From: Methanoregulaceae archaeon
GTDB lineage: Archaea > Halobacteriota > Methanomicrobia > Methanomicrobiales > Methanospirillaceae
Direction: 5' to 3'
Assembly (NCBI GenBank): GCA_019695435.1
Contig: JACTVF010000010.1
Location: 1-17,379, forward strand
DNA length: 17,379 bases
Shown: positions 1 through 15,944 of the stretch, in pieces
Layout: the number at the start of each line of letters is the position of its first letter
Numbering within the stretch: the stretch's first letter is position 1
Position numbers and translations under genes: made by a program
Notes under the pieces: model-generated
Seen by the model: only the letters and a program-made list of their open reading frames with translations
The model's database searches: none
Told to the model about the DNA's origin: nothing

Positions 1-2
1 TT

Positions 3-491
3 CTACCTATTATAAGACAAGAAGCAATTATTAAAAAAAGTGCAAAAAAACGATGGGAGGAAATTCCCAATCGGATATCTAACAGTACCGAAGTTACTAA
101 TTTTCTAAAAGCTTTTCAAAAAATGGCACTCTTTGAAACTAATAAACCAAATGCCCCATATGCACCTGGCGTAACTGGGTTAGCTATTTCAGAAGGTGAG
201 TTCGAAAGAATTTGCGATGAAGAATTTTTAAAAGATCGTCCAAAATACAAAACGTTAATTGAAACGATTTCTGTTTGCATATCACTCAACCTTATTGAGG
301 AATTCTCAGATGTAACTCAGGGTCAAAAAGGAAAAACATGGAAAGTATTATATTTAAACCGTTTGTTGTGTTTACATTTTGACTTACCTCTCCAGAAGGG
401 AGGTTGGCGCCCTAAGACAATTGATGAGTTGTCCGAATGGATTGAAAATGGTGAATTTATTGTACCTAAAAAAAGAGGGTCTAATCGATGA
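3..491 (+). CDS. 3' end of a large protein, possibly an ORC/CDC6-like ATPase C-terminus (5' truncated)
   Basis: The reading frame is open from the window edge, so only the C-terminal ~162 residues are visible; a Met codon at 123 is probably internal. The tail has alternating helices and short strands (residues after the Met: 'FERICDEEF', 'LIETISVCISLNLIEEF', 'WKVLYLNRLLCLHFDLPL', 'GGWRP'), which resembles a winged-helix module of the kind found at the C-terminus of ORC/CDC6-like or STAND-type ATPases. That assignment is from memory of motif style and is weak. No ATPase motif is in view. The stop overlaps the next start (ATGA at 488-491), so the gene is translationally coupled to the 375-residue protein and belongs to the same A+T-rich unit. 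Confidence 0.6.
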   Translation, partial: LPIIRQEAIIKKSAKKRWEEIPNRISNSTEVTNFLKAFQKMALFETNKPNAPYAPGVTGLAISEGEFERICDEEFLKDRPKYKTLIETISVCISLNLIEEFSDVTQGQKGKTWKVLYLNRLLCLHFDLPLQKGGWRPKTIDELSEWIENGEFIVPKKRGSNR

Positions 492-1615
492 AAAACTGTT
501 TTAATCCTTCAAAATTAAAATGGTCAAATTATTTCATGAAATCTGGTACGGATTTTTCATTTTTTTGGGATCAATATCTAAGAGAAAAACAAAGAACTAT
601 CTTATTCATTTTGGGTATTGGTTTTGATCCCAGAATGTGTTTCGGACTAAAAATTATTACAGATTCTTCAGCACCTAAGATTTGTGATTGCATATCAATA
701 AAATCAAAGGAAGGACCAAATTTCCGAGCAAAACTACATGAAAAAAATCTTAATAATAATATGATTGAATTTGAAAATTTGCTGAAAAAATGCAATAACC
801 ATTATCCAAAAGAAATCACAAAATGGACCGTAGATAAACGACCGAAGGGCGATATAGAAGCAAAAGAAATTATTAAGAATTTCTCGGAGTTATCAAAATA
901 TTCAGATATTATTGTTGATATCAGTGCTTTACCCAAAATAATCTACTTTCCATTGATCGCAAAAATACTTACATTGATTGAAGAAGCAAAAATGAATGGG
1001 TCATCAACTAGTTCTCCCGCCTTCCATGTAATTGTATCAGAAAATGTAGAGTACGACCGGTGCATTAATGAACAAATTCTCAATTGCGATCCTTTTTTTA
1101 TGAGTGGTTTTATCTCTAACTTGGAAAGTGAAGCTCTTGAACATCTTCCAAAAATTTGGATCCCGATTTTAGGTGAAAATAAAGAAGAGCACTTAAACAA
1201 CATTCATAAAATAATTGCACCTGATGAAGTGTGGCCAGTACTTCCATCCTCTTCAATTGATCCTAGAAGAAGTGATAAACTTCTTTTAATGTATCGTGAT
1301 TTCTTCTTCGATAAATTAAATATTGAACCAAGAAATATCATTTACGCATCTGAACAAAATCCATTTGATTTATATCGGCAAATCCATAGAGTATTTCACT
1401 ATAAGAATGAAGCGCTTAAACCGTTGGGGGGCTTTAAAATTATAATTTCCCCATTATCAAGTAAATTATTATCTATCGGTGCATTACTGGCAGCGTATGA
1501 GCTAAAACAAAAAAATGTGGGAATTATACATATTGAACCTCAGGATTATATTGTTAAAGAAATAACGGATACAATCAAACCAAATTTGTTCTCATTATTG
1601 CTAGTTGGGGATTGA
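488..1615 (+). CDS. Conserved-looking protein of unknown family with Rossmann-like segments (375 aa)
   Basis: I do not recognise the family. The sequence looks like two alpha/beta halves. The first has a hydrophobic strand followed by 'GIGFDPRM' (about residues 43-50) and a later strand 'DIIVDISALPK' leading into a helix. The second has 'ASEQNPFDLYRQIHR', 'IIISPLSSKLLSIGALLAAYEL' (split here as strand, turn, helix) and 'VGIIHIEP'. The strand-small-loop-helix pattern suggests nucleotide or small-ligand binding, and CARF-like or NAD/nucleotide-binding Rossmann proteins are possible. There is no signal peptide or membrane helix. It starts inside the stop of the previous gene and ends one base before the kinase start, so the three are co-transcribed. 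Base use is A+T-rich like its neighbours. The role is inferred only from context: a sensor or enzyme of a nucleotide-related conflict system. Confidence 0.85.
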   Translation: MKNCFNPSKLKWSNYFMKSGTDFSFFWDQYLREKQRTILFILGIGFDPRMCFGLKIITDSSAPKICDCISIKSKEGPNFRAKLHEKNLNNNMIEFENLLKKCNNHYPKEITKWTVDKRPKGDIEAKEIIKNFSELSKYSDIIVDISALPKIIYFPLIAKILTLIEEAKMNGSSTSSPAFHVIVSENVEYDRCINEQILNCDPFFMSGFISNLESEALEHLPKIWIPILGENKEEHLNNIHKIIAPDEVWPVLPSSSIDPRRSDKLLLMYRDFFFDKLNIEPRNIIYASEQNPFDLYRQIHRVFHYKNEALKPLGGFKIIISPLSSKLLSIGALLAAYELKQKNVGIIHIEPQDYIVKEITDTIKPNLFSLLLVGD

Positions 1616-2689
1616 ATGGCCGTAAAAACAAAACAAAATACCCAAAAAAAAGTTGGGACGTGCGTCGGTGCAGGTTATATTGCATTAGATATTGTTTTTA
1701 ATGAGATACTGAATGAAGACCCCAAGTATTGGACAGGTGGATCTTGCGGAAATATTCTTACAATCCTTTCATATTGGAACTGGAATACCTATCCTTTATC
1801 CCGTTTGGGAAAAGATATTGCATCAAGGTTTATTTTAAAAGATATCAAATCTTGGGGAGTGGATACAAGATTTATATCCACAGAAAAGATTGTCGATACA
1901 CCTATTGTTATTGAAAGAATAAAAAAACGAAAAACCGGAAAATATCTCCATAAATTTGAATGGACTTGCCCAAATTGTGGCTCTAGATTACCACATTATA
2001 GACCAATTACATTTGATGAGATTTCCTCATTCAAACAATCATTGCCTATCCCAGAAGTGTTCTATTTTGACAGAATTTCAAAAAGTACATTTGAAATTGC
2101 ATCCTTTTTAAAATCCGAAGGTAGTATCATTTTTTTCGAACCTTCCAGTGTAAAGAATAGTCCATTGTTTGAGAAATGCCTGCAAATATCAGATATTGTG
2201 AAATATTCTAATGAAAGGATAGAAGATATTACATTATTAGACGAGGATTCTATTTGTTTACAAATTCAAACTATGGGCGAAAATGGACTTCGGTATAAAT
2301 ATAATTCTTCAAGAAAATTGAATGGAAAAAAATGGGTTCATTTAAAATCGTATCACCTCACTGAATTTGCAGATTCTACAGGATCCGGAGATTGGTGTTC
2401 TGCTGGGATAATTCATATTTTGGGCAAAAATGGGCAAAAAGGTATTAAAGAATTGTCCGAAAAAGATGTTAAATTTGCACTAAATTACGGTCAAGCATTT
2501 GCAGCGTTGAATTGTATGTTTGATGGGGCTAGAGGATTGATGTACTCAGGCTTATCTAAAAAAGAGATTGAAATCGCAGTTACAAAGATTCAAAAAAATG
2601 AAAGCGTCGGTGATTTAATTGAAAGCAATAAAAAATCAAATATCTGTAAAACAATGCTGAAAATATGTAAAAATTGTCATCATCCGTAA
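1616..2689 (+). CDS. PfkB/ribokinase-fold sugar or nucleoside kinase with extra Cys pairs
   Basis: This 357-residue protein has the two hallmark regions of the PfkB (ribokinase) family. They are an N-terminal glycine motif 'GGSCGN' at residues 41-46 and the C-terminal anion-hole and catalytic motif 'DSTGSGDWCSAG' at 253-264, with D259 as the likely catalytic base. Family members phosphorylate hydroxymethyl groups of sugars or nucleosides with ATP. Unusual insertions are 'CPNCGSRLPHYRP' (118-130) in the lid region and a C-terminal 'CKNCHH' (351-356), which together could bind zinc. The ATG directly follows the previous TGA with no gap. The substrate cannot be read from the sequence. Because a deaminase-fold protein and a dUTPase lie just downstream, a nucleoside or modified-nucleotide substrate is the favoured inference. 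Confidence 0.88.
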   Translation: MAVKTKQNTQKKVGTCVGAGYIALDIVFNEILNEDPKYWTGGSCGNILTILSYWNWNTYPLSRLGKDIASRFILKDIKSWGVDTRFISTEKIVDTPIVIERIKKRKTGKYLHKFEWTCPNCGSRLPHYRPITFDEISSFKQSLPIPEVFYFDRISKSTFEIASFLKSEGSIIFFEPSSVKNSPLFEKCLQISDIVKYSNERIEDITLLDEDSICLQIQTMGENGLRYKYNSSRKLNGKKWVHLKSYHLTEFADSTGSGDWCSAGIIHILGKNGQKGIKELSEKDVKFALNYGQAFAALNCMFDGARGLMYSGLSKKEIEIAVTKIQKNESVGDLIESNKKSNICKTMLKICKNCHHP

Positions 2690-2701
2690 AGTTGATTTTT
2701 A

Positions 2702-2954
2702 GGCTCTGTAGAAATCGTCTACGATAATATCCGGAGATTCTTTTCCGTTTTTTCTCCCGGACATGGACAAGCGAGAAAAGCGTTGAGTGGGGTACCCGGA
2801 TCAGCCGATGAATACTTTCAGAATCGTACCCCTTGTCCATAACATAGAAGTTAGAATGTCTGACCCTGTGACATTGGTTTAGAAGTGTTTCAGCATGAAG
2901 AATATCATAAACCGGATGGTAGAGCGCCCCCTCCTAAAAAATTTCTACAGAGCC
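2702..2954 (-). mobile_element. IS5-like deletion derivative (MITE-like) with 14-bp terminal inverted repeats
   Basis: A perfect 14-bp inverted repeat, GGCTCTGTAGAAAT at 2702-2715 and its complement at 2941-2954, bounds a 253-bp element. Between the ends, the - strand encodes a transposase fragment in one open frame from about 2933 to the left end. It contains the DDE-core signature 'DKGYDSESIHRLIR' and a basic tail 'KRKRISGYYRRR'. This pattern is known from IS5-related DDE transposases of methanogens. The N-terminal two thirds and the normal C-terminus are absent, so it is an internally deleted, non-autonomous copy. I see no convincing target-site duplication. It sits between the kinase and the deaminase-fold gene and may have separated a former single operon. 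Confidence 0.8.
2710..2933 (-). pseudogene. Transposase fragment (DDE, IS5-like)
   Basis: The open frame on the - strand reads through 'YHPVYDILHAETLL', then 'FYVMDKGYDSESIHRLIR', then 'VREKKRKRISGYYRRR', and runs straight into the left terminal repeat. The order matches the middle catalytic part of IS5-type transposases. The upstream catalytic Asp and the downstream Glu region are missing, and the frame is closed by a TAG at the 5' side. It cannot code for an active enzyme. Confidence 0.75.
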
Positions 2955-2989
2955 GTCCTTTTCAGATCACCCTCCAATTTCGTTTTATC

Positions 2990-3100
2990 GAGTCTTTTTT
3001 AAAATATAGTTTACAGATTATCTCCCAAATCATTAAATAAAAGATTCGTATTGAATGTTACTATGTTATAGATAGAGGTAATCATAGAAAGGGGTAATTA
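2990..3100 (+). promoter_or_regulatory. Probable archaeal promoter and leader of the deaminase-fold/dUTPase pair
   Basis: An A+T-rich stretch follows the transposon remnant. 'TTTTTTAAAATATAG' (about 2995-3009) is a good TATA-box candidate. A purine-rich ribosome site 'GAAAGGGG' lies at 3087-3094, about eight bases before the TTG start. A second TATA-like block at about 3063-3068 cannot be excluded. Confidence 0.45.
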
Positions 3101-3102
3101 AA

Positions 3103-3816
3103 TTGTCTTTATTGACTGATACGGATCTTAAATTATTAATCTGTAAAGAGGAAGATTGGAGTGATAAGAATAAACTCCATATTTATCCTTATGAGGATTC
3201 TTGTTTAACGCCTGTCGGCTATGATGTTCGAGTTGGATCATATTATGCCTCCTCAATGGATGCGGATCGTTACAATATTCCACACGACAAACCTTATGTT
3301 ACAATAAAACCAGGTGATACGATTCTTATTACCACACTTGAAAATATTGGAATGCCCCAAAACCATACAATTTCAGCATTTATAACTTCGAAAGTATCGA
3401 AAGTATCTAAAGGCCTATCACATATTTCAACTAACATTGACCCCGATTGGGTAGGTAATCTCTTGATTGCAATCCACAACCCTTCTCGCAATGTTGTTAC
3501 CCTTGAATATAATGAACCATTTTGTACCTTAAATTTCATTGAGAATAAAAGTCAGTCAACAAAGGGATCAGAACATCCTCCGGGTCGCATAGATGTACTT
3601 CTTACACAATTTACGGAGGCTCAAAAAATTTCAAAAATGCTTGAAATGAATAAAACCAAACGGGAAAAACGATTTAATCTGCTGATTAAAGGGAGTATAA
3701 TATTATTGTGTGGAATAATCGGGTATTCTGTATTCAACAGCACGCCAGGTTTTATTGCTCTAGTTGCAATGGGAGTTGGTCTTTCAAGTATCATCAAATG
3801 GCCTAAAGAGAATTAA
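3103..3816 (+). CDS. dCTP deaminase/dUTPase-fold protein with two C-terminal membrane helices, catalytic Glu missing
   Basis: This 237-residue protein starts at TTG, chosen because of the upstream 'AAAGGGG' and the good fit of the N-terminus. Residues 1-170 follow the dCTP deaminase (Dcd) pattern: 'LTPVGYDVRVG' (35-45) matches the family's N-terminal signature, and 'NIDPDWVGNLLIAIHNPS' (111-128) matches the 'RIDPGWxGxxxLEFYN' block. In Dcd the Glu of 'LEFYN' (E138 in E. coli) is catalytic; here the same place is Ala123. The upstream 'GRSSLAR' motif is also changed ('SKVSKVSK', 97-104). Deamination is therefore unlikely and nucleotide binding is more plausible. After a basic linker, residues about 191-210 and 213-230 form two hydrophobic helices, placing the domain at the membrane. 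The gene precedes a dUTPase with one base between stop and start. A membrane-bound nucleotide sensor or effector is the inference. Confidence 0.82.
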   Translation: MSLLTDTDLKLLICKEEDWSDKNKLHIYPYEDSCLTPVGYDVRVGSYYASSMDADRYNIPHDKPYVTIKPGDTILITTLENIGMPQNHTISAFITSKVSKVSKGLSHISTNIDPDWVGNLLIAIHNPSRNVVTLEYNEPFCTLNFIENKSQSTKGSEHPPGRIDVLLTQFTEAQKISKMLEMNKTKREKRFNLLIKGSIILLCGIIGYSVFNSTPGFIALVAMGVGLSSIIKWPKEN

Positions 3817-3817
3817 T

Positions 3818-4279
3818 ATGTCGGTTGACAAAACCAAAATAAACCGAGTTAAGATCAAAGTTCAGCGTATCTCCCCTGATGCTAAACTTCCAAATTATCA
3901 ACATTTGGGCGATGCAGGAGCCGATATTTGTTCAACTATTAATTACACTCTTAAGCCCAATGAAAGAAAAGCTATTCCTATTGGATTAAAGGTAGAAATC
4001 CCTCAAGGGTATGAACTACAAGTGCGGTCTAGAAGTGGCTTAGCACTTAAGGATGGAATATTCGTTTTAAATAGTCCGGGGACAATCGATTCTGGTTATA
4101 GAGGTGAAATTCAAGTAATATTAATAAATGTTAGCGATAAAGAATATGATATACATATTAATCAGAGAATTGCTCAAATTGTTTTAAATCCGGTTTTTAT
4201 TGCAATTTTTGAAGAAGATGAAACTCTTACGGAATCTTCTCGTGGCAGTGCTGGATTTGGGTCAACTGGCAAAAAGTAA
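3818..4279 (+). CDS. dut: dUTP diphosphatase (trimeric dUTPase)
   Basis: It hydrolyses dUTP to dUMP and pyrophosphate, which keeps uracil out of DNA. All five motifs of the homotrimeric family are present: motif 1 'DAGADI' (32-37), motif 2 'RSRSGLA' (70-76), motif 3 'GTIDSGYRGE' (88-97) with catalytic D91, motif 4 'RIAQIVL' (117-123) and motif 5 'RGSAGFGSTG' (142-151). The 153-residue length is normal. I chose ATG 3818 rather than a start further upstream, because this start lies one base after the preceding stop, has 'AAAGAG' before it and leaves no odd N-terminal extension. It looks fully active, unlike the deaminase-fold partner. Base use is A+T-rich, so it is probably part of the island rather than the host's housekeeping copy. 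Confidence 0.95.
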   Translation: MSVDKTKINRVKIKVQRISPDAKLPNYQHLGDAGADICSTINYTLKPNERKAIPIGLKVEIPQGYELQVRSRSGLALKDGIFVLNSPGTIDSGYRGEIQVILINVSDKEYDIHINQRIAQIVLNPVFIAIFEEDETLTESSRGSAGFGSTGKK

Positions 4280-4303
4280 ACACTCCCCTATAGCGTCATT
4301 GCT

Positions 4304-4323
4304 CGTTTTGATTTTGATATTTT
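4304..4323 (+). terminator. T-rich archaeal-type terminator after dut
   Basis: Three T-runs in 20 bases follow 25 bases after the dut stop. Such T-rich tracts are typical archaeal intrinsic terminators. The tract also marks the point where the A+T-rich island gives way to G+C-rich sequence. Confidence 0.4.
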
Positions 4324-4846
4324 GGCAATTGCTCTGTTGGGGACGGGAAGGAATAATTTTGCCACTGAGTGGAGGGGGTACCCCCCACCTTCTCGGACAC
4401 AGGCGGAGGGGGTAGGGGGATCACCCCCCTCATCCAGCGGCCCGAAAAAGTATACCCCAAATACGCCCGATACGGGCCCGGATTGTCAATACGGCGATCC
4501 CGTTTTCCGGTTCCACAGGAAATTGTGTCCACGCCCACGGAAGAAATGGCATTTTGGGAGTATTTTGCAAAACCGGGTAAAAAGAGGGTCACTTAAACCT
4601 GCAATACAGCGGGCCTGTACGGGCCCCGGTTTTCCGGAGGTGCTGAAGGAGGGGGGGAGGGGCGAAAAAGGCCGTTATGGAAAGATCATCTCCGGAAAAT
4701 AGATTCTCATATTCGCGTTTTTACGGCATTTTCGGGTGCCGGATGGGGTAAACAAGGTGGCGGAAACAGCCCCCATTTCAATATCCGGGACACTCTGAAA
4801 ATATTCTCATAGTCTTCCTTTTCATTTTCCCGGAAATTCATTTTTT
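4324..4846. other. Non-coding G+C-rich stretch with palindromes and dispersed-repeat fragments
   Basis: No credible gene is visible; the short open frames have proline/arginine-rich nonsense composition. The stretch holds a perfect palindrome GGGGGTACCCCC (4374-4385), a near inverted repeat around GGGGGATCACCCCC (4415-4428) and a 31-base segment at 4455-4485 that recurs at 7672-7704. The CCGG-rich style resembles the other non-coding stretches of the window. Confidence 0.6.
4455..4485. repeat. Dispersed intergenic repeat, copy A
   Basis: The core 'ATACGCCCGATACGG' followed by 'CCCGGATTG' is shared with 7672-7704, with one A insertion and one C/G difference. Both copies are in non-coding DNA and in the same orientation. 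A shorter 'GCGGGCCCGGATT' piece recurs at about 16504-16516. Confidence 0.7.
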
Positions 4847-5518
4847 TCAAGTATTTCTTTTTGCAAACTCCCGGACCTTGATCGATGCGTCGGGTCTCAG
4901 AGGTATTCCATGTCCCGACAGCATGATTTCAAAATCAAGTGCGGCGATTTTATTGATTGATTGCTGTACCGCACCTGTGTCTAAAGTCAATGGCCCCATT
5001 TCGATTTTGCTGCCGTTAAACCTCATGAGATCCCCGGCAAACAGAATTTTTGATGCCGGATCAAAAAGACAGATACTTCCTGGTGTATGTCCTGGCGTAT
5101 GTATGGTGGTGAGACCAGCAATGGTGTCACCGTCGTTGAGCTGTATATCCGGTTCAACAGGCGTTGATCTGAACAACAAGGGCATGAGGAATTTCACGAT
5201 CATTCCCTTAACCCCACTCGGGACAGGCGGGGTTTTTCTACCGGCAACGTACTCCGCATCCGCTTCATGAATGGCCACCTTCGCACCGCTCAGTTTTTTG
5301 AGTTCGCTCGCGTCGCCCACGTGATCAATATGAAAGTGTGTCAGGACGATCGTTTTGACGTCTGAAGGTTTACGTTTAAGAATATCCTGAATATAGTTTA
5401 CAATTTTTGCGCTGTTTTTGGGCATTCCCGTATCGATAAGTGTCAGGTCGTCCCGAACAATAATGAAACAATTGCCATTTACACCATCGACTTGGTGTAT
5501 GCCAGGTACTATCTCCAT
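4847..5518 (-). CDS. Metallo-beta-lactamase-fold hydrolase
   Basis: This 223-residue protein has the complete metal-binding set of the MBL fold: 'THFHIDHVGD' (60-69; H61, H63, D65, H66), 'HTPGHTPG' (140-147; H144), 'AGDLM' (161-165; D163) and 'SGHG' (201-204; H203). These bind two metal ions, usually zinc or iron. The size and the 'TPGHTPGS' sequence fit the glyoxalase II-like or general thiolester/lactone hydrolase branch; the substrate is not predictable. There is no signal peptide, so it is cytoplasmic. The ATG at 5518 is preceded by 'GAAGGATT' on the - strand. It is divergent from the HTH-MNT gene, with 158 bases between the starts, and its function seems unrelated to the neighbours. Confidence 0.9.
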   Translation of the reverse strand: MEIVPGIHQVDGVNGNCFIIVRDDLTLIDTGMPKNSAKIVNYIQDILKRKPSDVKTIVLTHFHIDHVGDASELKKLSGAKVAIHEADAEYVAGRKTPPVPSGVKGMIVKFLMPLLFRSTPVEPDIQLNDGDTIAGLTTIHTPGHTPGSICLFDPASKILFAGDLMRFNGSKIEMGPLTLDTGAVQQSINKIAALDFEIMLSGHGIPLRPDASIKVREFAKRNT

Positions 5519-5568
5519 AATCCTTCAACTCCATTTTTTTGTATCTCTTCGATTATCCGACATCTATC

Positions 5569-5578
5569 AATTTATAGC
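5569..5578. promoter_or_regulatory. TATA-like box in the divergent intergenic region
   Basis: 'CAATTTATAG' reads CTATAAATTG on the - strand, a good archaeal TATA box about 55 bases before the hydrolase start, leaving room for a short leader with a ribosome site. In the + direction it lies about 105 bases before the HTH-MNT start and could also serve that gene, with all operators then downstream of the transcription start. Confidence 0.4.
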
Positions 5579-5621
5579 GATCAGCTGCGGACCGGCACCT
5601 GTACCCTGCACACAAACTTTT

Positions 5622-5682
5622 GTTCACGGATCGCAAACATTTTGTTCATGGAACGTGAACCATTAGTTCAGGGACTATGAAC
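5622..5682 (+). promoter_or_regulatory. Three phased operator-like inverted repeats, 22-bp period
   Basis: Three 17-base sites share the plan GTTCA-N7-TGAAC. Site 1 (5622-5638) has a degenerate right arm, CAAAC. Site 2 (5644-5660) and site 3 (5666-5682) are perfect. The left arms start at 5622, 5644 and 5666, exactly 22 bp apart, so the sites lie on nearly the same face of the helix. Site 3 overlaps the ATG of the HTH-MNT gene (5677). Autoregulation by that protein's N-terminal HTH is the simplest reading. Confidence 0.75.
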
Positions 5683-6234
5683 GAACGACTGCATGATCTC
5701 TCTGCGCTCTTCCGGACCGGGGAACGCATCACCCTGCTCCGGGCTGCCCTCCTCGTACCGGCATGCACCGTGCAGCAGATCGCTGCAAAGACCGGGTTGT
5801 CAAAAGGACTCGTCTCCCCGTACCTCGCCCTGCTCGAACGCGAAGGGCTGCTCACGCGGATCGACCGCACGTACCAGCTGAAATTTTCCCCGGTGACGGT
5901 CGCAGTAAAACGTCTGCTCAATACCGATCTCATCACTGGCGCATTCCAAAAACCGGCATGGGCTTCCGGCACCGGGATCTATGGAAGCTGGGCTCTTGGG
6001 ACAAACACGGAGGAGAGCGATATCGACCTCTGGGTGTACGTAAAAACCCTGCCGTCCGGGATAATGGTCGCAGAACTTGAGCGGGAGGTATCGCGTGCAG
6101 TTTCTGCCGAAGTCCATATTCTGGTCCTGACACAAGAGAAAATGGCCGGGCTCAAAAGTACTGATGAACCGTTTTACCGGTCGTTTGTAAAACAATCGAT
6201 CACGCTCGAAGGTGAATCACCTGACACGTCTTGA
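5677..6234 (+). CDS. HTH-nucleotidyltransferase (MNT-type) protein, likely antitoxin and autorepressor
   Basis: This 185-residue protein joins a winged-helix DNA-binding domain (residues about 15-70; recognition region 'IAAKTGLSKGLVSPYLALLE') to a minimal nucleotidyltransferase domain. The signature 'GSWALGTNTEESDIDLWV' spans 103-120, with the GS motif and metal-binding D115 and D117. MNT proteins of this kind pair with HEPN toxins and can neutralise them by transferring nucleotides (known for MntA/HepT). Here the stop lies 23 bases inside the next gene, whose N-terminus is HEPN-like, which supports the pairing. Three operator-like repeats precede and overlap the start, so autoregulation is likely. 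The nucleotidyltransferase looks intact although its HEPN partner is damaged. Confidence 0.88.
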   Translation: MNERLHDLSALFRTGERITLLRAALLVPACTVQQIAAKTGLSKGLVSPYLALLEREGLLTRIDRTYQLKFSPVTVAVKRLLNTDLITGAFQKPAWASGTGIYGSWALGTNTEESDIDLWVYVKTLPSGIMVAELEREVSRAVSAEVHILVLTQEKMAGLKSTDEPFYRSFVKQSITLEGESPDTS

Positions 6235-6475
6235 TGAGTGTTACGAGCGCGGGCTCCTGCGGAAGGTTGCACCTTCAAACGAGAAGGCGATGCAGTCCCT
6301 CGCACAGGCCCGCGAGTGGGTAACCGAGGCCGGGTTTGATTGCGATGCCGGTGCGGAATCGCTGTACCGGATCCGGGTCGGGGAGTACCGGATTATTTAT
6401 CAGGTGCTGCATGAATCCCGCGAAGTGATCGTGTCCTCTATCCGGCACCGGAGTGTTGCATACCGTGGAGTGTAA
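6212..6475 (+). CDS. Chimeric gene: HEPN N-terminus fused to RelE C-terminus
   Basis: GTG at 6212 starts a frame overlapping the MNT gene. Residues 1-45 ('CYERGLLRKVAPSNEKAM') match the first helices of HEPN toxins that pair with MNT. From residue 46 the protein abruptly becomes the C-terminal half of a RelE-type toxin ('YRIRVGEYRIIYQV', then 'IRHR..AY'). The switch falls exactly where a 157-bp direct repeat begins (6347), whose other copy is in the decayed relE at 7460-7616. The HEPN catalytic region (R-x4-6-H) is gone and the RelE half lacks its N-terminal helices, so toxicity of either kind is doubtful. A recombination product is the likely origin. It may be translated, but function is unknown. 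Confidence 0.7.
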   Translation: MNHLTRLDECYERGLLRKVAPSNEKAMQSLAQAREWVTEAGFDCDAGAESLYRIRVGEYRIIYQVLHESREVIVSSIRHRSVAYRGV

Positions 6476-6503
6476 CGCTCCCGGTTTCACATCGGTACCC
6501 CGG
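6347..6503 (+). repeat. 157-bp direct repeat, copy 1 (relE 3' half)
   Basis: Bases 6347-6503 match 7460-7616 with five differences. The first 107 bases are identical. The repeat covers the 3' half of a relE gene and about 28 bases beyond its stop. The high identity points to a recent duplication or gene conversion. Confidence 0.95.
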
Positions 6504-6531
6504 AAACCTTTCCGTTCCTGTACACAAACCC

Positions 6532-6570
6532 TATTATAATTCGCAACCAAGATCCACGTATACTAGGTGA
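6532..6570 (+). promoter_or_regulatory. Promoter and ribosome site of the DUF104/PIN pair
   Basis: 'TATTATAAT' at 6532-6540 is a TATA-box candidate about 37-45 bases before the ATG, allowing a very short leader. 'AGGTGA' at 6565-6570, six bases before the ATG at 6577, is the ribosome site. Confidence 0.55.
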
Positions 6571-6576
6571 ACCGGC

Positions 6577-6768
6577 ATGGTCAGGGCAATCGAATGCATC
6601 TATGAGGACAATGTTCTCAAACCGGTGGGAAAGATCCAACTTAAGGAAGGTGAACGGATCCGGGTGACCATTGAGAAGAAGCTCAGCTTTGAGCCTATCC
6701 GGCTAAAGAAGAAAGTTACATCGAATCGCATCAGTACTCTCAAGGATGAGTCATGGACCTCTTCCTAG
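6577..6768 (+). CDS. Antitoxin of the AF2212-like (DUF104) family
   Basis: This 63-residue protein begins 'MVRAIECIYEDNVLKPVGKI', continues with 'LKEGERIRVTIE', and has a basic middle region. That is the signature of the short archaeal DUF104 antitoxins, which form a small beta structure and pair with PIN-domain toxins. The next gene is a PIN toxin whose start lies 16 bases inside this one, so the two are translationally coupled. It has a good ribosome site ('AGGTGA'). The antitoxin is expected to bind and block the PIN active site and may repress the promoter. Confidence 0.88.
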   Translation: MVRAIECIYEDNVLKPVGKIQLKEGERIRVTIEKKLSFEPIRLKKKVTSNRISTLKDESWTSS

Positions 6769-7202
6769 ACACTTCTTTTATTATCCCGCTCCTTATCGAG
6801 ACCGATACGACACAGAAGGCCCGGGATTTTTTCTCATCGTTTCCGGGTGCCTGTGCTGCAAGCATGTCGGTGTATGAAGAAACCTTCTTTGTCGGGATCA
6901 GGCTGATCGCAGAGGATGAATTCGGGATTGCCGGGACCGCGGATCTCAAGAAACACATCCGGGAAAACGGCTACGGTTTTGCCGACGATTTTATCCGTAA
7001 CGTAAACGAAATTTTTTCAGGACTCATAATCGTGCCGGACACGTCGAACCTCACACTCATCGAAAAGACTGCCCGGGCCTATGCCCTCCTTCCCAACGAT
7101 GCACTGATTGCCGCGACCTGTATCGAACACGCCATCCCGCAGATCGCAACATTTGACCGTGACTTCTCAAAAGTGAAAAATCCATGCCGAATCAAAATCT
7201 GA
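6753..7202 (+). CDS. PIN-domain ribonuclease toxin (VapC-like)
   Basis: This 149-residue protein has the PIN-fold acidic set: D6 in 'LFLDTSFIIPLL', E42/E43 in 'SVYEETF', D116 in 'LPNDALIAATCIEH' and D135/D137 in 'IATFDRDF'. These would bind Mg2+ or Mn2+ in a sequence-specific RNase that stops growth by cutting RNA when free of antitoxin. It starts with 'AAGGATGA' just upstream and overlaps the DUF104 antitoxin by 16 bases. It appears intact and is the only toxin of this cluster that does. Its 3' end overlaps a short RelB-like frame by 19 bases. Confidence 0.92.
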   Translation: MDLFLDTSFIIPLLIETDTTQKARDFFSSFPGACAASMSVYEETFFVGIRLIAEDEFGIAGTADLKKHIRENGYGFADDFIRNVNEIFSGLIIVPDTSNLTLIEKTARAYALLPNDALIAATCIEHAIPQIATFDRDFSKVKNPCRIKI

Positions 7203-7294
7203 AAAATCCTCAGCAGATCAAAGAAGATCTCCACGATTGTGCGATGGTGGCAGAACGGCGGGACGAAGGCATCATAAGCCTGGCCGAATTATAA
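7184..7294 (+). CDS. Short RelB-like antitoxin remnant (36 aa)
   Basis: ATG 7184 opens a frame 'MPNQNLKNPQ', then 'DLHDCAMVAERRDEGIISLAEL', stopping at TAA 7292-7294. The 'AERRDEG.ISLAEL' end is typical of RelB-type antitoxins that precede RelE toxins. After the stop the same frame continues with K-R-V-M and a second stop, so the gene may have lost a few C-terminal residues by a nonsense change. It lies directly before the decayed relE at 7320 and overlaps the end of the PIN toxin. Without a functional partner it may be vestigial. Confidence 0.55.
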   Translation: MPNQNLKNPQQIKEDLHDCAMVAERRDEGIISLAEL

Positions 7295-7319
7295 AAGCGT
7301 GTGATGTGAGCGGGACAGA

Positions 7320-7588
7320 ATGAGTCCTTACACGCTCTCTTTTAAAAACAGCGTGGAGAAAGATTGCCGGAAAATCTAAAAAAGACCTGCTCCCGAATAT
7401 TTTTGAGCACGTGGAAAATCTTCGGAGAAAATCCGCTCCCGCACGATGCGATCAAACTGGCCGGTGCGGAATCGCTGTACCGGATCCGGGTCGGGGAGTA
7501 CCGGATTATTTATCAGGTGCTGCATGAATCCCGCGAAGTGATCGTGTCCTCTATCCGGCACCGGAGCGTTGCATACCGAAGCGTGTAA
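7320..7588 (+). pseudogene. relE-type toxin, broken by two frameshifts
   Basis: ATG 7320 gives 'MSPYTLSFKNSVEKDCRKI' and a stop at 7377. The following frame (+1) gives 'SKKDLLPNIFEHVENL' from about 7375. The third frame gives 'GENPLPHDAIKLAGAES' and the RelE C-terminus 'YRIRVGEYRIIYQV' to the TAA at 7586-7588. Joined, the three pieces make a normal RelE-size protein of about 88 residues. The first shift is at the A-run near 7378-7383 and the second is near 7430. This is the second copy of the 157-bp repeat and probably the source of the segment found in the HEPN chimera. Confidence 0.85.
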
Positions 7589-7616
7589 CTCTCCCGGTTT
7601 CACATCGGTACCCCGG
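7460..7616 (+). repeat. 157-bp direct repeat, copy 2 (relE 3' half)
   Basis: This is the partner of 6347-6503, at an offset of 1113 bases, with five mismatches clustered in the last 50 bases around the stop codon. It is continuous with the frameshifted relE upstream, so this copy is in the native context. Confidence 0.95.
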
Positions 7617-8200
7617 GGTGAGAATACCTTGTTTCGACCCCCCAATCCGACCTTGGATCCCCGCTCCCTCACCCCCAAAATACGCCCGATACGGCCCCGG
7701 ATTGCCCCTAACCGGCTCCGGAAAACCTCGTAAAACGCCCGGATTCGGGGGCCACCCAAAAGTTGGTTATACGGGGACATTTTGCTAAAATACCCCATAT
7801 TTGCCCCCGGATTTTGATCGTCATATTGGCCGTTCTTTCAATTCCGGCATACTTTGGCCCGATAAAAAGGAGATCGGCCACCGGAACGCGATAGCGGCCG
7901 TTTCCTGAGGGGGTCGGAATCCGGCGGATTTTTGAGAGTATTTTGGCTGGGAAACGATGATTTTGGGACGGTTTTCTCCGACGGAGATGGGGTTCCGGAG
8001 GGGATCGGTGAAAATGTACCGATCCGGGCCAAAAATTACCGGTCCTCTTTTTCATACGAAGCCACTTCCCGAGCGGGAGGTCCGAATGAAATTCATAATC
8101 TGTCAGATGATTGTTCATTTCGGCAGAGGAGTTGTATGAGGTAATTCCACGAGAATGCGGGATCAGGTGGAAATCACTGACCGGATGTGCGATTGTCCAA
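7617..8200. other. Non-coding stretch with dispersed-repeat fragments and a hairpin
   Basis: No gene is supported here; the open frames are rich in R, P, S and G with no plausible ribosome site or family. A 33-base segment (7672-7704) matches 4455-4485 nearly exactly. 'TTTTGAGAGTATTTTGG' (about 7929-7945) resembles 'TTTTGGGAGTATTTTGC' at about 4552-4568. A perfect 8-bp hairpin GGATCGGT/ACCGATCC lies at 8002-8025 and is followed by an A-run. Confidence 0.6.
7672..7704. repeat. Dispersed intergenic repeat, copy B
   Basis: This is the second copy of the segment at 4455-4485. Similar spacing to CCGG-rich surroundings suggests a genome-wide repeat family that landed in both gaps. Confidence 0.7.
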
Positions 8201-8204
8201 AACA

Positions 8205-8308
8205 GCACTAAAATAAAAAGTAGTATATAGCTGGTGTTGAGAACAGGCTGTTAATCACCCGGAGGGTAATGAGCGGTTCCCGGCCCGGGAGCACGGGAAC
8301 GAGGAGGT
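8205..8308 (+). promoter_or_regulatory. Promoter and structured leader of the CO dehydrogenase operon
   Basis: 'ACTAAAATAAAAAGTAGTATATAG' (about 8207-8230) contains an A-rich element and a TATA box, so transcription would start near 8250. The leader holds an inverted repeat GTTCCCG (8276-8282) / CGGGAAC (8294-8300), whose stem ends right at the ribosome site GAGGAGGT (8301-8308). A second ribosome-like GGAGG (8261-8265) lies before an in-frame ATG at 8269. Confidence 0.55.
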
Positions 8309-8316
8309 ACCATTGC

Positions 8317-8931
8317 ATGAAAACGGTTTTTGTAACGCCTGAACTCTGTATCGGGTGCAGGCACTGCGAGGTCGCGTGTGTGATCGAGCACGCGAAGAGC
8401 AAACAGCTGTTCGCTGCGGTTGCGGAAGAGAAACGGTCGCAGCCGCGGGTGTACGTGGAGACGGGGATGCATTACCTGACCTTCCCCAACCGGTGCCGGC
8501 ACTGCGACCCGGCGCCGTGCATGCAGGTCTGCCCGACCGAAGCGCTGGTGCGGGACGATGCCACGGCTTCCGTCCTGGTCCGGTACGAGCGGTGCATCGG
8601 GTGTGCGGTCTGCGCCATGGCCTGCCCGTTCGGCATCATCCGGTTCAACAGCGTCCACCAGCTGGACACGGACCGCGAGGTGAACGCGAAGTGCGACAAC
8701 TGCATCGAGCGTCAGCGGGCCGGGGCGATTCCCGCCTGCGCCGAGGCCTGCAAGACCGGCGCCCTGACATTCGGGGAGGCAGGCGACCTGATCCGGTCGA
8801 GCAGGAAGGACTTCACCCTGCGGCTGATCGCGGCGCAGGAGACCGGGGCCGAGGCGCCGAAGATGCCAGCCAACATTAAGGCGTTCCGGTCGATTATGGC
8901 ACGGCTTGCTGAACTTACGGGGGAGAACTGA
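8317..8931 (+). CDS. cooF: CooF-like polyferredoxin, electron carrier of CO dehydrogenase
   Basis: This 204-residue protein has 16 cysteines in four [4Fe-4S] motifs: C11/C14/C17/C21, C60/C63/C68/C72, C93/C96/C99/C103 and C126/C129/C141/C145. This is the CooF/HycB/DmsB plan. In CO-oxidising microbes CooF takes electrons from CooS and hands them to a partner enzyme. I chose ATG 8317 because a strong ribosome site (GAGGAGGT) lies eight bases upstream. An in-frame ATG at 8269 would add a 16-residue tail that the family lacks. It is the first gene of the operon and is followed 13 bases later by cooS. There is no membrane segment; it acts in the cytoplasm. Confidence 0.92.
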   Translation: MKTVFVTPELCIGCRHCEVACVIEHAKSKQLFAAVAEEKRSQPRVYVETGMHYLTFPNRCRHCDPAPCMQVCPTEALVRDDATASVLVRYERCIGCAVCAMACPFGIIRFNSVHQLDTDREVNAKCDNCIERQRAGAIPACAEACKTGALTFGEAGDLIRSSRKDFTLRLIAAQETGAEAPKMPANIKAFRSIMARLAELTGEN

Positions 8932-8944
8932 GGGGGAAAGAAAA

Positions 8945-10834
8945 ATGTACGATACATCTGCAGGAAAGAAGATCGCTGAGGCGAGAGCGCTTGACAAGAA
9001 CGACCAGGAGATTATGGTAAAATCCATGGAAGACGGTATCGAGACAGTCTGGGATCGTTTCGCTGACCAGCAGCCACAGTGCGGCTTCGGGAACCTCGGC
9101 GTCTGCTGCAACCGGTGTGCCATGGGGCCCTGCCGGACCGAGCCGTTCGGGAAAAAACCGACCCGGGGCACCTGCGGTGCGGATGCCGATCTCATCGTCG
9201 CACGGAACCTGCTCGACGACCTTACCACCGGCGCTGCCGCCCACTCGGACCACGGGCGTGAAGTCGTCGAGGCCATGCTCGCGACCGCGGAAGGCCGGGC
9301 ACAGGGGTACCAGATCCTCGATGAGGGCAAGCTGAACGTGGTCGCGACGGAGTATGGCATAAAAACGGCCGGCCGGAAAAAAGAAGAGATCGCCGGCGAG
9401 CTGGCCCGGGCGCTGCTCGAAGAGTACGGGACGCTCAAAAACAAAATCCAGATGACCGAGCGTGCCCCGCAGAAGACCAAAGACGCGTGGAAGAAGCTGG
9501 GGATTATGCCCCGCAGCGTTGACCGCGAAGTCGTGGAGGCGATGCACCGGATCCACATGGGTGTCGATGCGGATTACACAAACATCCTCCTGCACGCGAT
9601 GAGGACGGCTCTTTCCGACGGGTGGGGTGGCTCGATGATGGGGACCGACTGCTCCGATATCCTCTTTGGGACCCCGACGCCCCTGAAGGCGTGGATAAAC
9701 CTTGCCACGATCAGCAGGGACAAGGTCAATATCGTCCTCCACGGGCATAACCCGGTCCTCTCCGATATGATCGTGAAGGCGGCAGCCGATCCGTCCCTTG
9801 TCAAACGTGCAAAGGACGCCGGCGCAAAGGGCATCAACCTTGCCGGGATGTGCTGTACCGGGAACGAACTCTTAATGCGGCGTGGCATCCCCCTTGCCGG
9901 CAGTTTCTTCGACCAGGAACTGGTGATTGCGACCGGGGCAGTCGAGGCCATGGTGATCGATTACCAGTGCATCTTCCCCGCGGTGACCCAGACGGCCGGC
10001 TGTTACCACACAAAAGTCGTGACCACCAGCCGGAAGGCGAAGATCCCGGGCGCCATCCACAAGGAGTTCCGGCCCGATAACGCCTACGATACCGCAAAGG
10101 AGATCATCGGTCTCGCGATCGACAACTTCGCGAACCGGAACCCGGCCCGGGTCAGGATCCCGGACAAGCCGATGCAGCTGATGTCGGGCTTCTCGGAAGA
10201 AGCGATACGAAAGGCACTCGGCGGGACGTACAAGCCGCTGATCGATGCCATCGTTGCCGGGAAGATCAAGGGAGCCGTCGGCATTGTCGGTTGCAACAAC
10301 CCGAAGATCAAGCAGGACTATGGCCATGTCACGCTGGCAAAAGAGCTGATCAGGCGGGACATCCTTGTTGTCGAGACCGGGTGTGCCGCGATTGCCTGCG
10401 GGAAGGCGGGCCTGCTCGTCCCCGAAGCAGCAGACATGGCGGGACCCGGCCTCAAGTCTGTCTGCAACGCGCTCGGCATCCCGCCGGTGCTCCACATGGG
10501 CTCCTGCGTTGACTGCTCGCGTATTCTCGTGCTTGCCGCCAACATCGCAAAGGAGCTCAATGTCGGTATCAGCGATCTTCCGCTGGGCGGGGCTGCACCC
10601 GAATGGTATTCGCAGAAAGCGATCTCGATCGGTACGTACTTTGTCGCTTCGGGTGTGTACACGGTCCTTGGCATCCCGCCCAAGATCTTCGGCAGCGCTA
10701 ACGTCACCAACCTCCTTGCCGCCCAGCTTACCGGCATCGTGAATGCCTCGTTTGCTGTTGAACCCGACCCGCTCAAGGCCGCCGACCTGCTCGAGGCCGA
10801 GATCAACCGGAAGAGAAAGGCGCTCGGGATCTGA
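8945..10834 (+). CDS. cooS: Anaerobic Ni-Fe carbon monoxide dehydrogenase catalytic subunit
   Basis: It oxidises CO with water to CO2, two protons and two electrons (reversible) in the cytoplasm. This 629-residue protein carries the D- and B-cluster cysteines in 'CGFGNLGVCCNRCAMGPCR' (C46, C54, C55, C58, C63) plus C77, with the same spacing as Carboxydothermus CooS. C-cluster ligands are visible as H268 ('HGHNP'), C303 ('GMCCTGNE'), C342 ('YQCIFP'), C450 ('GCNNPK'), C480 ('ETGCAA') and C521 ('MGSCVD'). All catalytic clusters therefore seem intact. ATG 8945 is preceded by 'GGGGGAAAG'. No acetyl-CoA synthase subunit follows, so this is the monofunctional type. The downstream NuoEF-like genes suggest the electrons go to NAD(P) or arrive from it. 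Confidence 0.97.
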   Translation: MYDTSAGKKIAEARALDKNDQEIMVKSMEDGIETVWDRFADQQPQCGFGNLGVCCNRCAMGPCRTEPFGKKPTRGTCGADADLIVARNLLDDLTTGAAAHSDHGREVVEAMLATAEGRAQGYQILDEGKLNVVATEYGIKTAGRKKEEIAGELARALLEEYGTLKNKIQMTERAPQKTKDAWKKLGIMPRSVDREVVEAMHRIHMGVDADYTNILLHAMRTALSDGWGGSMMGTDCSDILFGTPTPLKAWINLATISRDKVNIVLHGHNPVLSDMIVKAAADPSLVKRAKDAGAKGINLAGMCCTGNELLMRRGIPLAGSFFDQELVIATGAVEAMVIDYQCIFPAVTQTAGCYHTKVVTTSRKAKIPGAIHKEFRPDNAYDTAKEIIGLAIDNFANRNPARVRIPDKPMQLMSGFSEEAIRKALGGTYKPLIDAIVAGKIKGAVGIVGCNNPKIKQDYGHVTLAKELIRRDILVVETGCAAIACGKAGLLVPEAADMAGPGLKSVCNALGIPPVLHMGSCVDCSRILVLAANIAKELNVGISDLPLGGAAPEWYSQKAISIGTYFVASGVYTVLGIPPKIFGSANVTNLLAAQLTGIVNASFAVEPDPLKAADLLEAEINRKRKALGI

Positions 10835-10855
10835 TCGGGCACCATCGGCCACTCG

Positions 10856-10862
10856 TTTTTTT
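10856..10862 (+). terminator. T7 tract between cooS and the nuoE-like gene
   Basis: Seven T bases lie in the 37-base gap between cooS and the next start. In archaea such a tract can cause partial termination, so it may set a higher ratio of cooF/cooS to downstream transcripts. It is weak evidence by itself. Confidence 0.3.
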
Positions 10863-10871
10863 GAGGACACC

Positions 10872-11357
10872 ATGGACGAACCAACGCTCGACGCCATTAT
10901 CGCCCGGTATGACGATCCGGCCGGCCGGCTTCTCGGGATCCTCGGGGAGATCCAGGATGAGGAAGGATACATCCCGAGAGAATCGCTCGCGATGCTCGCA
11001 GAGAAACTTGACGTACGCCTCTCACAGCTCTACAGCCTTACCACCTTCTACTCCTATTTCAGCCTGACACCGGTCGGCGACCATGTCATCACGGTCTGCA
11101 TGGGGACTGCCTGCCATGTCAAAGGCGCCCCCGGGATCCTCGAGGCCCTGGAAGGGATGCTGGGAATAAAGAGCGACACCTCGGAGGACGGCAAGTTCTC
11201 CATCACCACGGACGATAAAAAATTCACGCTGGAGATCGCCCGTTGCTTCGGCGCCTGCAGCATGGCGCCCGTCCTCCGGATTGACGGGAACCTCTATGGC
11301 TATGCAACCAGGGAAGACCTCCCGGCGATCCTCGCAGAGTACGGGTGGGAGCCATGA
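10872..11357 (+). CDS. NuoE/HydC-like [2Fe-2S] thioredoxin-fold subunit
   Basis: This 161-residue protein has the [2Fe-2S] ligands C76 and C81 ('CMGTACHVKGA') and C125 and C129 ('CFGACSMAP'). The helical N-terminus ('GYIPRESLAMLAEKL') is typical of the 24-kDa subunit of complex I and of HydC in bifurcating hydrogenases. It passes electrons to or from the flavin subunit. ATG 10872 has 'GAGGAC' upstream; a start further upstream would overlap cooS and is rejected. The stop overlaps the next ATG by four bases (ATGA), so it is coupled to the NuoF-like subunit. With no NADH dehydrogenase membrane genes nearby, a soluble complex is likely. Confidence 0.93.
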   Translation: MDEPTLDAIIARYDDPAGRLLGILGEIQDEEGYIPRESLAMLAEKLDVRLSQLYSLTTFYSYFSLTPVGDHVITVCMGTACHVKGAPGILEALEGMLGIKSDTSEDGKFSITTDDKKFTLEIARCFGACSMAPVLRIDGNLYGYATREDLPAILAEYGWEP

Positions 11358-13045
11358 AGATCGGATCAGCAGCCGATCTGGAGGCGGTACGACAGGCCGG
11401 CATGCAGAAGCTCCGGCCCGGAAAACCCCGGATCGCGGTCGGGCTTGCCACCTGCGGGATCGCGGTGGGCGGCAACCGGGTGTACGAACGCCTCCGGGAG
11501 ATCATTGAAAGGGACGGTCTGGATATCGTTCTGACAAAAACGGGGTGTATCGGCTATTGTAAGGAAGAGCCGCTCGTGAATATCAGTATCCCGAATAAAC
11601 CGCTCGTGATCCTGCACAAGGTCACCGAAGCCGATGTTGAGGAGATCGTAAAACAGGTAAGCAGGGGAAAGGTGCCGGCTGATAAGGCCCTGTGCCGGGT
11701 CCCGTCATGGGACCATGTTACGGGATGCACCCTTGAGTACGGGAAAGGATTTTCCAAGATTCCTCTCTATGAAAAGGTCCCGTTCTTTAAGGCCCAGAAG
11801 AAAGTGATCCTGCGGGACGCCGGCCTGATCAACCCGGAAGATATTGACGAGTACATCGCGGTGGGCGGCTACGCAGCTGCCCTGAAGGCCCTGACCGGGA
11901 TGGATCCGGAGACCATTATAAAAGAAGTGGAGAACTCCGGGCTCCGGGGAAGGGGCGGTGCCGGTTTCCCGACAGGCCAGAAGTGGCGGATCACCCGCGA
12001 TGCGAAAGCTGACAAGAAATATATCCTCTGCAATGCCGACGAGGGCGACCCCGGCGCGTACATGAACCGGAACGAGATGGAGAGCGACCCCCACATGCTC
12101 ATCGAGGGCATGATCATCGGGGCGTTTGCCATGGGTGCTGCCAAGGGTTTCATCTTTATCCGGGCGGAATACCCGCTAGCGATCAAACGGCTGAAGCTCG
12201 CCATCGGGCAGGCCCGGGAGTACGGGCTCCTTGGCAGCAACATCTTCGGCACAGGGTTCTCGTTCGATATCGGGATCGCGACGGGTGCCGGTGCCTTTGT
12301 ATGCGGCGAATCAACTGCCCTCGTGGCATCCATTGAGGGAAGGACCGGCCGGCCCCACCCCCGCCCGCCGCGGCTCACCGACATCGGGGGCGGGCTCTTC
12401 GGGTACCCCACGGACCTCAACAATGTCGAGACCTGGTGCAACGTGCCGGTCATCATGGCCAACGGCAGCGACTGGTACTCCCGTATCGGGGCTGAGGGCA
12501 ACACCGGCACCAAGGTCTTCTCGCTCGTGGGAAAAGTCGACCGGGTCGGGCTCGTGGAAGTGCCGCTCGGGACAACGCTCCATACCATCGTGTCCGATAT
12601 CGGCAACGGCGGGGCCAACAACAAGAAGGTAAAAGCCGTCCAGACCGGCGGTCCTTCCGGGGGCTGCATCCCGCTCCGGCTGTTCGAAACAACCGTGGAC
12701 TACGAGAGCCTCAACCGTGTCGGCTCGATCATGGGGTCCGGGGGTATCGTGGTCATGGACGAGGACACGGACATGGTGGATATCGCCCGGTACTTCATCA
12801 ACTTCGCTACAGGAGAGTCCTGCGGGAAATGTGTCCCCTGCCGGGAGGGGCTCAAGCACGCGCTCCTCCTCCTCAACCGGATCATGGCAAAGAAGGGCAC
12901 GAAAAAGGATATCGAAACCCTTGCCCTCCTGTCCGACACCATCGTGGCAACATCGCTCTGCGGGCTTGGCCAGACGGCACCCAACCCGGTGCTGACGACC
13001 CTGGCGTATTTCCGGGAAGAATACGACGCGCTGGTGAAACCATGA
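11354..13045 (+). CDS. NuoF/HydB-like flavoprotein subunit (NAD(P)H/FMN, Fe-S)
   Basis: This 563-residue protein has, in order, an N-terminal [2Fe-2S] thioredoxin-like domain (C34, C65, C69 in 'GCIGYC'), the FMN and NADH core with 'GRGGAGFPTGQKWR' (199-212) and 'CNADEGDPGAYMNR' (226-239), a SLBB-type segment near 385-440, and the [4Fe-4S] site 'ESCGKCVPCREG' (C490, C493, C496) with C536 in 'SLCGLGQ'. Unlike many HydB proteins it ends soon after and has no C-terminal two-cluster ferredoxin. It should exchange electrons between NAD(P)H and Fe-S clusters through FMN. It overlaps both neighbours by ATGA, which indicates tight co-translation with the NuoE- and NuoG-like subunits. Placement beside cooS suggests CO-linked NAD(P) chemistry. 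Confidence 0.95.
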   Translation: MKIGSAADLEAVRQAGMQKLRPGKPRIAVGLATCGIAVGGNRVYERLREIIERDGLDIVLTKTGCIGYCKEEPLVNISIPNKPLVILHKVTEADVEEIVKQVSRGKVPADKALCRVPSWDHVTGCTLEYGKGFSKIPLYEKVPFFKAQKKVILRDAGLINPEDIDEYIAVGGYAAALKALTGMDPETIIKEVENSGLRGRGGAGFPTGQKWRITRDAKADKKYILCNADEGDPGAYMNRNEMESDPHMLIEGMIIGAFAMGAAKGFIFIRAEYPLAIKRLKLAIGQAREYGLLGSNIFGTGFSFDIGIATGAGAFVCGESTALVASIEGRTGRPHPRPPRLTDIGGGLFGYPTDLNNVETWCNVPVIMANGSDWYSRIGAEGNTGTKVFSLVGKVDRVGLVEVPLGTTLHTIVSDIGNGGANNKKVKAVQTGGPSGGCIPLRLFETTVDYESLNRVGSIMGSGGIVVMDEDTDMVDIARYFINFATGESCGKCVPCREGLKHALLLLNRIMAKKGTKKDIETLALLSDTIVATSLCGLGQTAPNPVLTTLAYFREEYDALVKP

Positions 13046-14785: not shown

Positions 14786-14802
14786 GAACGCCAACACTTC
14801 CC

Positions 14803-15892: not shown

Positions 15893-15944
15893 AAGGATCC
15901 TGTTGGGGAGGGGAGAGAAATAATGTTACATGTTTCAACAAAAA

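Follow-up and report, generated by a model that had tools for sequence, protein, structure and literature searches.

A CARF-operon tail and a Dcd-fold protein/dUTPase pair adjoin in the A+T-rich end of a methanogen contig

Contig JACTVF010000010.1 of a Methanoregulaceae archaeon (assembly GCA_019695435.1), all 17,379 nucleotides of which form the window analysed here, begins with an A+T-rich stretch that an earlier note had read as one four-gene nucleotide-conflict system, made up of a 375-aa protein, a PfkB kinase, a membrane-anchored deaminase-fold protein and a dUTPase. We consider it likely that two independent, horizontally moving modules adjoin there instead: module A, the putative 3′ part of a five-gene operon with a CARF protein, and module B, a dCTP-deaminase-fold protein with predicted membrane helices (Dcd-TM) together with a dUTPase. 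The four genes do not form one system, because the tail of the CARF operon and the Dcd/dUTPase pair occur separately elsewhere and a transposon remnant lies between them here. A false four-gene system is thereby removed and two testable units are put in its place.

Genes in the A+T-rich end of the contig

The source genome carries the archaeal RNA polymerase subunit N, a marker that matched four of 14 control genomes (the four archaea among them), and methyl-coenzyme M reductase, as befits an archaeal methanogen. The G+C content is 33.8% across positions 1-4279 and 56.6% across 4280-17379. Five + strand frames fill the A+T-rich part (Table 1), the first of which is open at the contig edge. As the window is a whole contig and so begins at such an edge (the assembly consists of 508 contigs and is 84%-complete), this first frame gives the C-terminal end of a protein whose remainder lies off the contig. 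The earlier description of a compact + strand set held for the strand, the tight junctions and the base composition, but not for a single tight set, as the PfkB gene and the Dcd gene are 413 bp apart (2690-3102) and this gap contains a remnant resembling a miniature inverted-repeat transposable element (MITE). The arms of the remnant (2702-2724 and 2932-2954) are 83% complementary, and part of it resembles two further places in the same genome (79% and 69% identical). An 86-aa frame lying on it on the - strand (2580-2840) had no Pfam match at E 0.001.

Table 1. Features of the A+T-rich stretch and of the adjoining toxin-antitoxin-like patch
Feature	Position	Strand	Unit	Remarks
ORC-CDC6-like ATPase, C-terminal 162 aa	3-491	+	module A	5′ end open
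CARF6-family protein, 375 aa	488-1615	+	module A	overlaps preceding frame by 4 nt
PfkB-type sugar kinase, 357 aa	1616-2689	+	module A	abuts preceding frame; CPxCG insert; GSGD motif intact
Transposon remnant, MITE-like	2702-2954 (253 bp)	not assigned		23-nt inverted ends
Dcd-TM, dCTP-deaminase-fold protein	3103-3816	+	module B	TTG start; long helix, two C-terminal hydrophobic helices
dUTPase, trimeric type, 153 aa	3818-4279	+	module B	ATG start at 3818, 1 bp past the Dcd-TM gene
HTH (helix-turn-helix)-nucleotidyltransferase gene	5677-6234		toxin-antitoxin-like patch	
ParE-type gene	6212-6475		toxin-antitoxin-like patch	
AF2212-like gene	6577-6768		toxin-antitoxin-like patch	
PIN-domain gene	6753-7202		toxin-antitoxin-like patch	

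Pfam confirmed three components that had been named from the letters: the kinase (PF00294, E 1.9e-9; 37.7 bits against a curated cut-off of 25.8), the Dcd fold (DCD, E 2.6e-11) and the dUTPase (PF00692, E 2.8e-28), which also scored 175.7 bits with NF001862 against a cut-off of 103. The suspected nucleotide or conflict flavour was likewise borne out by the CARF6 profile, by the ORC-CDC6-like ATPase and by the PRTase-CE partner in relatives. The first frame had no Pfam match of its own, and it aligned with residues 466-609 of a PF24389 protein from a Sulfitobacter plasmid (41% identity over 150 columns, E 8e-32). The 375-aa protein matched the PADLOC model PDLC01910 (E 3.8e-105) and, less strongly, four further CARF6 models (E below 0.002), and its best structural rows were CARF chains; the PDLC01910 profile matched nothing in 14 control genomes. 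The kinase is 34% identical to the PfkB protein of the Sulfitobacter operon, and the profile of its family scored highest in the PDB with fructokinases and PH1459.

Distribution of the two modules

A tblastn search with the CARF protein returned 17 of 72,556 plasmid records (15 from Alphaproteobacteria, one from an actinobacterium and one from a betaproteobacterium). Among genomes it matched two of 232 in the class, four of 392 in the phylum and none of the 14 controls, two of the four phylum matches being marginal (G324, E 3.7e-4; G539, E 9.7e-4). The other clear match is a methanogen of the same order (G047), whose chromosome carries the complete operon, encoding SIS-HAD (640 aa), PRTase-CE (387 aa), ORC-CDC6-like (654 aa), CARF (385 aa) and PfkB (373 aa) proteins. 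In these 18 other loci, read over stretches of 12.8-19.9 kb, profile searches found SIS-HAD, PRTase-CE and ORC in 18/18, PfkB in 17/18 and NADAR in 7/18, the CARF protein being present throughout by selection and the profiles having been iterated on the same loci. PfkB is absent from the stretch read around L067, L070 and L071 are identical in positions and scores and hence not independent, L074 is in pieces, and the PRTase-CE gene of L005 is likewise broken. Judged from the gene content and conservation that this comparison establishes, the whole unit is an operon of five genes (SIS-HAD, PRTase-CE, ORC-CDC6-like ATPase, CARF protein, PfkB), of which module A would be the 3′ part, cut by the contig edge. 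It is one methanogen example of an operon type with components already present in public libraries, and it looks like a mobile CARF-type operon resembling an immunity system.

Module A is also present on three IMG/VR contigs, with SIS-HAD missing from one and PfkB from one within the stretch fetched. When single proteins of the window served as query, scans of viral contigs gave no match; alignments used as query did, and a phage collection contained no relative of the 375-aa protein. Inspection of the IMG/VR contigs (L076-L080) by eye showed a large primase-helicase-like protein on L077 and a Mu-like transposase on L080, which suggests that phages or phage-like elements carry the module. Eight neighbours of module-A copies were compared with PADLOC, and defence models were matched by GajB of Gabija (L069, L074), a patatin effector (L010), a caspase (L073) and a PD-DExK nuclease (L070), with no match for the neighbour in L011 and a weak one only in L009; since the neighbours were picked by hand, these matches count as support and not as a statistic. 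The Rhizobium tumorigenes plasmid locus L010 carries, at 2923-13044, two tandem PRTase-CE/ORC/CARF sets with the patatin-like effector gene between them.

For module B we compared 25 Dcd-TM loci chosen by sequence and not by their neighbours: the window, six plasmid loci (L048-L053, six of 8 matched records having been read), ten loci given by a genome scan with two strict word patterns (L054-L063), one viral contig (L064) and seven archaeal loci (L096-L102). As a single query Dcd-TM matched 63 of 199 relatives' genomes, at best with E 9.3e-7 besides its own, and by score and length we took these matches as ordinary Dcd proteins. With a Dcd-TM profile, matches at E 1e-8 came from 118 of 392 genomes, and its seven best matches besides the window's own were taken in as the archaeal loci (G245, G277, G310, G311, G364, G391, G458). 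Counting L097, L099 and L101 among them is generous, because an R-S-x-x-(A/T)-R stretch is retained in all three and the frame of L099 spans 128 aa; these three may be Dcd-type dUTPases. A dUTPase gene lies beside Dcd-TM in five of the 25 loci (window, L048, L049, L064, L096), at gaps of 0 to 89 bp; outside the window the pair occurs without module A on two Bacillaceae plasmids, in another archaeon and on the viral contig.

These two sets of loci do not intersect. The neighbourhood check proposed in the earlier note found the 375-aa protein and the kinase together in 17 of the 18 other CARF6 loci, while profile searches placed Dcd-TM and dUTPase in none of the 18 stretches read and in none of the three IMG/VR contigs. 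Conversely, module-A genes were found in none of the 24 other Dcd-TM loci (absent from 17 of 17 and then from 7 of 7), the contigs of L097, L099 and L102 being about 7 kb or less. By these counts, which give the outcome that the note itself had named as refuting its reading, we rejected the four-gene circuit. A single circuit of four or five genes, in which the PfkB kinase would make a signal, Dcd-TM would sense it at the membrane and the dUTPase would trim the pool, the remnant having merely landed inside the operon, would agree with the common strand, the common A+T-rich stretch and the small gap, but against the counts it is very improbable. In particular, the idea that a product of the kinase is sensed by the Dcd protein has no comparative support, because the modules never co-occur in the loci compared.

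Predicted chemistry of the modules, and the flanking genes

Comparison showed that the phosphoribosyl pyrophosphate (PRPP) loop and the kinase motifs of module A are intact. The PRTase-CE proteins keep the loop DDFxASG, in which D201, D202 and G207 do not vary across 11 sequences, all taken from genomes other than that of the window; the HAD part of the SIS-HAD family keeps DxDGT (D386, D388, G389 and T390 invariant in 11 sequences); and the kinases keep the GSGD motif, with D253, G256, G258 and D259 invariant in an alignment of 12. The N-terminal part of the 640-aa protein bears a weak likeness to SIS phosphosugar isomerases (PDB 2aml, E 0.0021; 8eol, E 0.003), which are outscored by a chain labelled FecR (E 3.3e-4), and Pfam SIS was found in three of 11 members of the family at E up to 0.1, at best 0.032. 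Sensing, activation and substrate we infer as follows, holding the mechanism as a whole, a gated nucleotide destruction, only tentatively. Sensor and gate would be formed by the ORC-type ATPase together with the CARF protein, whose CARF domain would bind a nucleotide-type ligand; upon activation, PRTase-CE would destroy nucleotides at the glycosidic bond; and PfkB and SIS-HAD would make, remove or recycle a phosphosugar or nucleotide ligand or product. PRTase-CE was reportedly described by Nicastro et al. in 2023 as a nucleotide-targeting immune effector. Of the two modules, A appears to be the better immunity candidate.

The copy in the window might alternatively be a decayed leftover, an inactive 3′ part and nothing else. 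Searches of the window's 84%-complete assembly gave neither a PRTase-CE nor a second ORC-CDC6-like match (the PRTase-CE search being run without a positive control), which would agree with decay; nevertheless complete frames encode CARF and PfkB, and that of ORC runs open to the end of its contig in an assembly of 508 pieces, and we think decay improbable. What makes module A of interest is that a CARF operon with no Cas10 partner in its neighbourhood is joined to a predicted nucleotide-destroying effector and to two phosphosugar enzymes, which lets the ligand question for an orphan CARF domain be tested directly. Csm1/Cas10 was not found in G000 or G047, in a search that matched seven of the 14 control genomes.

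Module B bears out the earlier claim of a catalytically altered membrane Dcd, as its Dcd-fold protein has lost deaminase residues and gained predicted membrane helices, and the claim that it is paired with a dUTPase. In Dcd-TM of the window an Ala replaces the deaminase Glu (E138 of E. coli), and this Glu is missing from all 24 readable Dcd-TM proteins and present in both housekeeping Dcds compared (L017 and L029), five further rows (L018, L019, L026, L031, L034) being left out as read on the wrong strand. The protein scored 61.2 bits with NCBIfam TIGR02274, under the curated cut-off of 92.8. The dUTPase is 47% identical to dut of the Peribacillus pair; by sequence it is of the trimeric type and is predicted to hydrolyse dUTP, and on inspection by eye it seems to have all of what we take to be the five dUTPase motifs. 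Dcd-TM would be a natural Glu-to-Ala dCTP deaminase, altered at the same site as the engineered E. coli E138A protein (PDB 1xs4 with dCTP and 2j4q with dTTP, by their titles), with membrane helices added and a repeated link to metabolism of dUMP and dTMP.

That link includes a conserved cluster in the cyanobacterial loci L056-L062, where a thymidylate synthase-like protein, a dCMP deaminase, Dcd-TM and a deoxyribosyltransferase-like protein stand together around position 10000, all four in 7/7. The family names come from L057 only; the thymidylate synthase-like protein matches a methanogen-type model below its cut-off and has a pterin-binding domain, and the conserved cluster looks like an uncharacterised dTMP-synthesis unit. 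These relatives, sitting in a thymidylate-synthesis cluster, speak against the Dcd-TM family being solely a defence device. Elsewhere Dcd-TM lies beside a MazG-like gene (L050, below the Pfam cut-off, and L052), a relative of PDB 3e57 Tm1382 (L054 and L055, E 1.5e-27), a dTMP kinase (L102) and a P-loop kinase with weak dTMP-kinase similarity (L100). Tm1382 is presumably a Nudix protein; its relative in L054 and L055 was matched by neither Pfam nor NCBIfam. No recognised nucleotide-metabolism neighbour was found in seven of the 25 loci (L051, L053, L063, L097, L098, L099, L101). A second Dcd-TM type, on Rhizobiales and Priestia plasmids (L050, L051, L052), adjoins an Oxidored_FMN-like gene, the MazG-like gene being present in the two Rhizobiales loci. 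A 61-codon frame of L059 (11090-11272), possibly a dUTPase remnant, matched the dUTPase profile at E 3.5e-14, a match not repeated at 1e-5 when phmmer was run with the dUTPase of the window.

Three roles were weighed for Dcd-TM, and we favour that of a membrane-bound partner of the dUTPase. It would bind a deoxypyrimidine nucleotide without deaminating it and, in what we tentatively put as its most likely role, would tether or tune dUTP/dUMP handling at the membrane, or sense the dUTP pool. Were Dcd-TM instead catalytically active at the membrane, as a dUTPase or another nucleotide hydrolase and not as a sensor, the pair would be plain pool sanitation, as in the cyanobacteria; the window protein, however, lacks both the RSSLAR stretch kept in 8y1w and the KSSIAR stretch found in both housekeeping Dcds, and a canonical dUTPase already adjoins in five loci, which makes this somewhat unlikely. 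The pair might also be toxin-antitoxin-like or defensive, with Dcd-TM a membrane-damaging effector released when a phage alters dUTP and otherwise silenced by the dUTPase. The two hydrophobic C-terminal helices, the presence of the pair on a viral contig as well as on plasmids, and a SIR2 gene directly upstream of the pair in Peribacillus (PADLOC PDC-S25, E 3.2e-159), with SIR2-like genes near L055 (on the other strand) and L101 (weak), speak for such a pair; but the cyanobacterial relatives look like housekeeping genes in all seven loci and no PADLOC model matches Dcd-TM or the dUTPase, so we hold a defence pair to be unlikely. Bolder still, and in our view rather unlikely, is a twofold proposal: that Dcd-TM is an undescribed, widespread family of membrane-tethered pseudo-dCTP-deaminases (in archaea, cyanobacteria, Bacilli, Rhizobiales and a viral contig) that monitor the deoxyuridine/thymidine nucleotide pool and exert their effect through a membrane hairpin, in housekeeping and defence versions, and that the ligand of the orphan CARF protein of module A is a sugar-nucleotide from its own PfkB, SIS-HAD and PRTase enzymes and not cyclic oligoadenylate.

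Beyond the island, the toxin-antitoxin-like patch (5677-7202) adjoins the A+T-rich DNA. A direct repeat of 157 bp, with copies at 6347-6503 and 7460-7616 that are 97% identical, includes the C-terminal part of a ParE-type toxin gene, and ORF 7364-7588 in its second copy has the appearance of a truncated or chimeric toxin gene. A CO dehydrogenase cluster occupies 8269-14785; its CooS-type catalytic subunit matches TIGR01702 with 699 bits, and its other members are a ferredoxin-type protein, NuoE/NuoF-like subunits, a 2Fe-2S/4Fe-4S protein and a CooC/MinD-like ATPase. A PD-(D/E)XK nuclease with weak Cas4-type similarity follows on the - strand (14975-15892).

Relation to known systems

Among the papers that literature searches listed, none appeared by title and abstract opening to describe module A or module B, the Dcd-TM/dUTPase pair; for module A we make no claim of absence from print, and for module B the claim extends no further than these searches. 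The anti-phage dCTP deaminases of the AvcD type are zinc-dependent CDA-type enzymes that act on deoxypyrimidine pools. The earlier note had linked the window to such deaminases and the link failed: at E up to 1 the matches to the window Dcd did not include the NCBIfam model for them (NF041025), nor did those to the dUTPase, and no PADLOC family matched either protein. Compared with the dCTP deaminases and Dcd-type dUTPases (PF22769), Dcd-TM of the window lacks the deaminase Glu and the (R/K)SSxAR stretch, and it is extended by a long helix and, at the C-terminus, by two hydrophobic helices.

On the side of module A, the PRTase effectors of type III-A retrons (PADLOC PRTase_III-A) are distantly matched by the PRTase-CE proteins of relatives (E 3.4e-14 in L008, 2.5e-20 in L007 and 7.7e-7 in the broken gene of L005), but the annotation of the 17 plasmid stretches names no reverse transcriptase. 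The CARF6 group of the CARF superfamily, which Makarova et al. are said to have set out in 2020, is the group whose profile PDLC01910 the window protein matches, with CARF chains as its best rows in the structural comparison; unlike that group, module A has no fused effector and no Csm1/Cas10 in the two genomes searched, and its partners are PRTase-CE, ORC-CDC6, PfkB and SIS-HAD. Also close are the PRTase-CE/ORC-CDC6-like conflict systems (PF24390, PF24389). An excerpt of PMC10853773 names ORC/CDC6-family ATPases as a mainstay of conflict systems, and the term 'ORC-CDC6-like' occurs in an excerpt of PMC12839542. The window itself holds only the ORC tail of such a system, whereas the relatives of module A carry both domains beside a CARF protein, in an operon that differs from those systems in having five genes, with CARF, PfkB and SIS-HAD among them.

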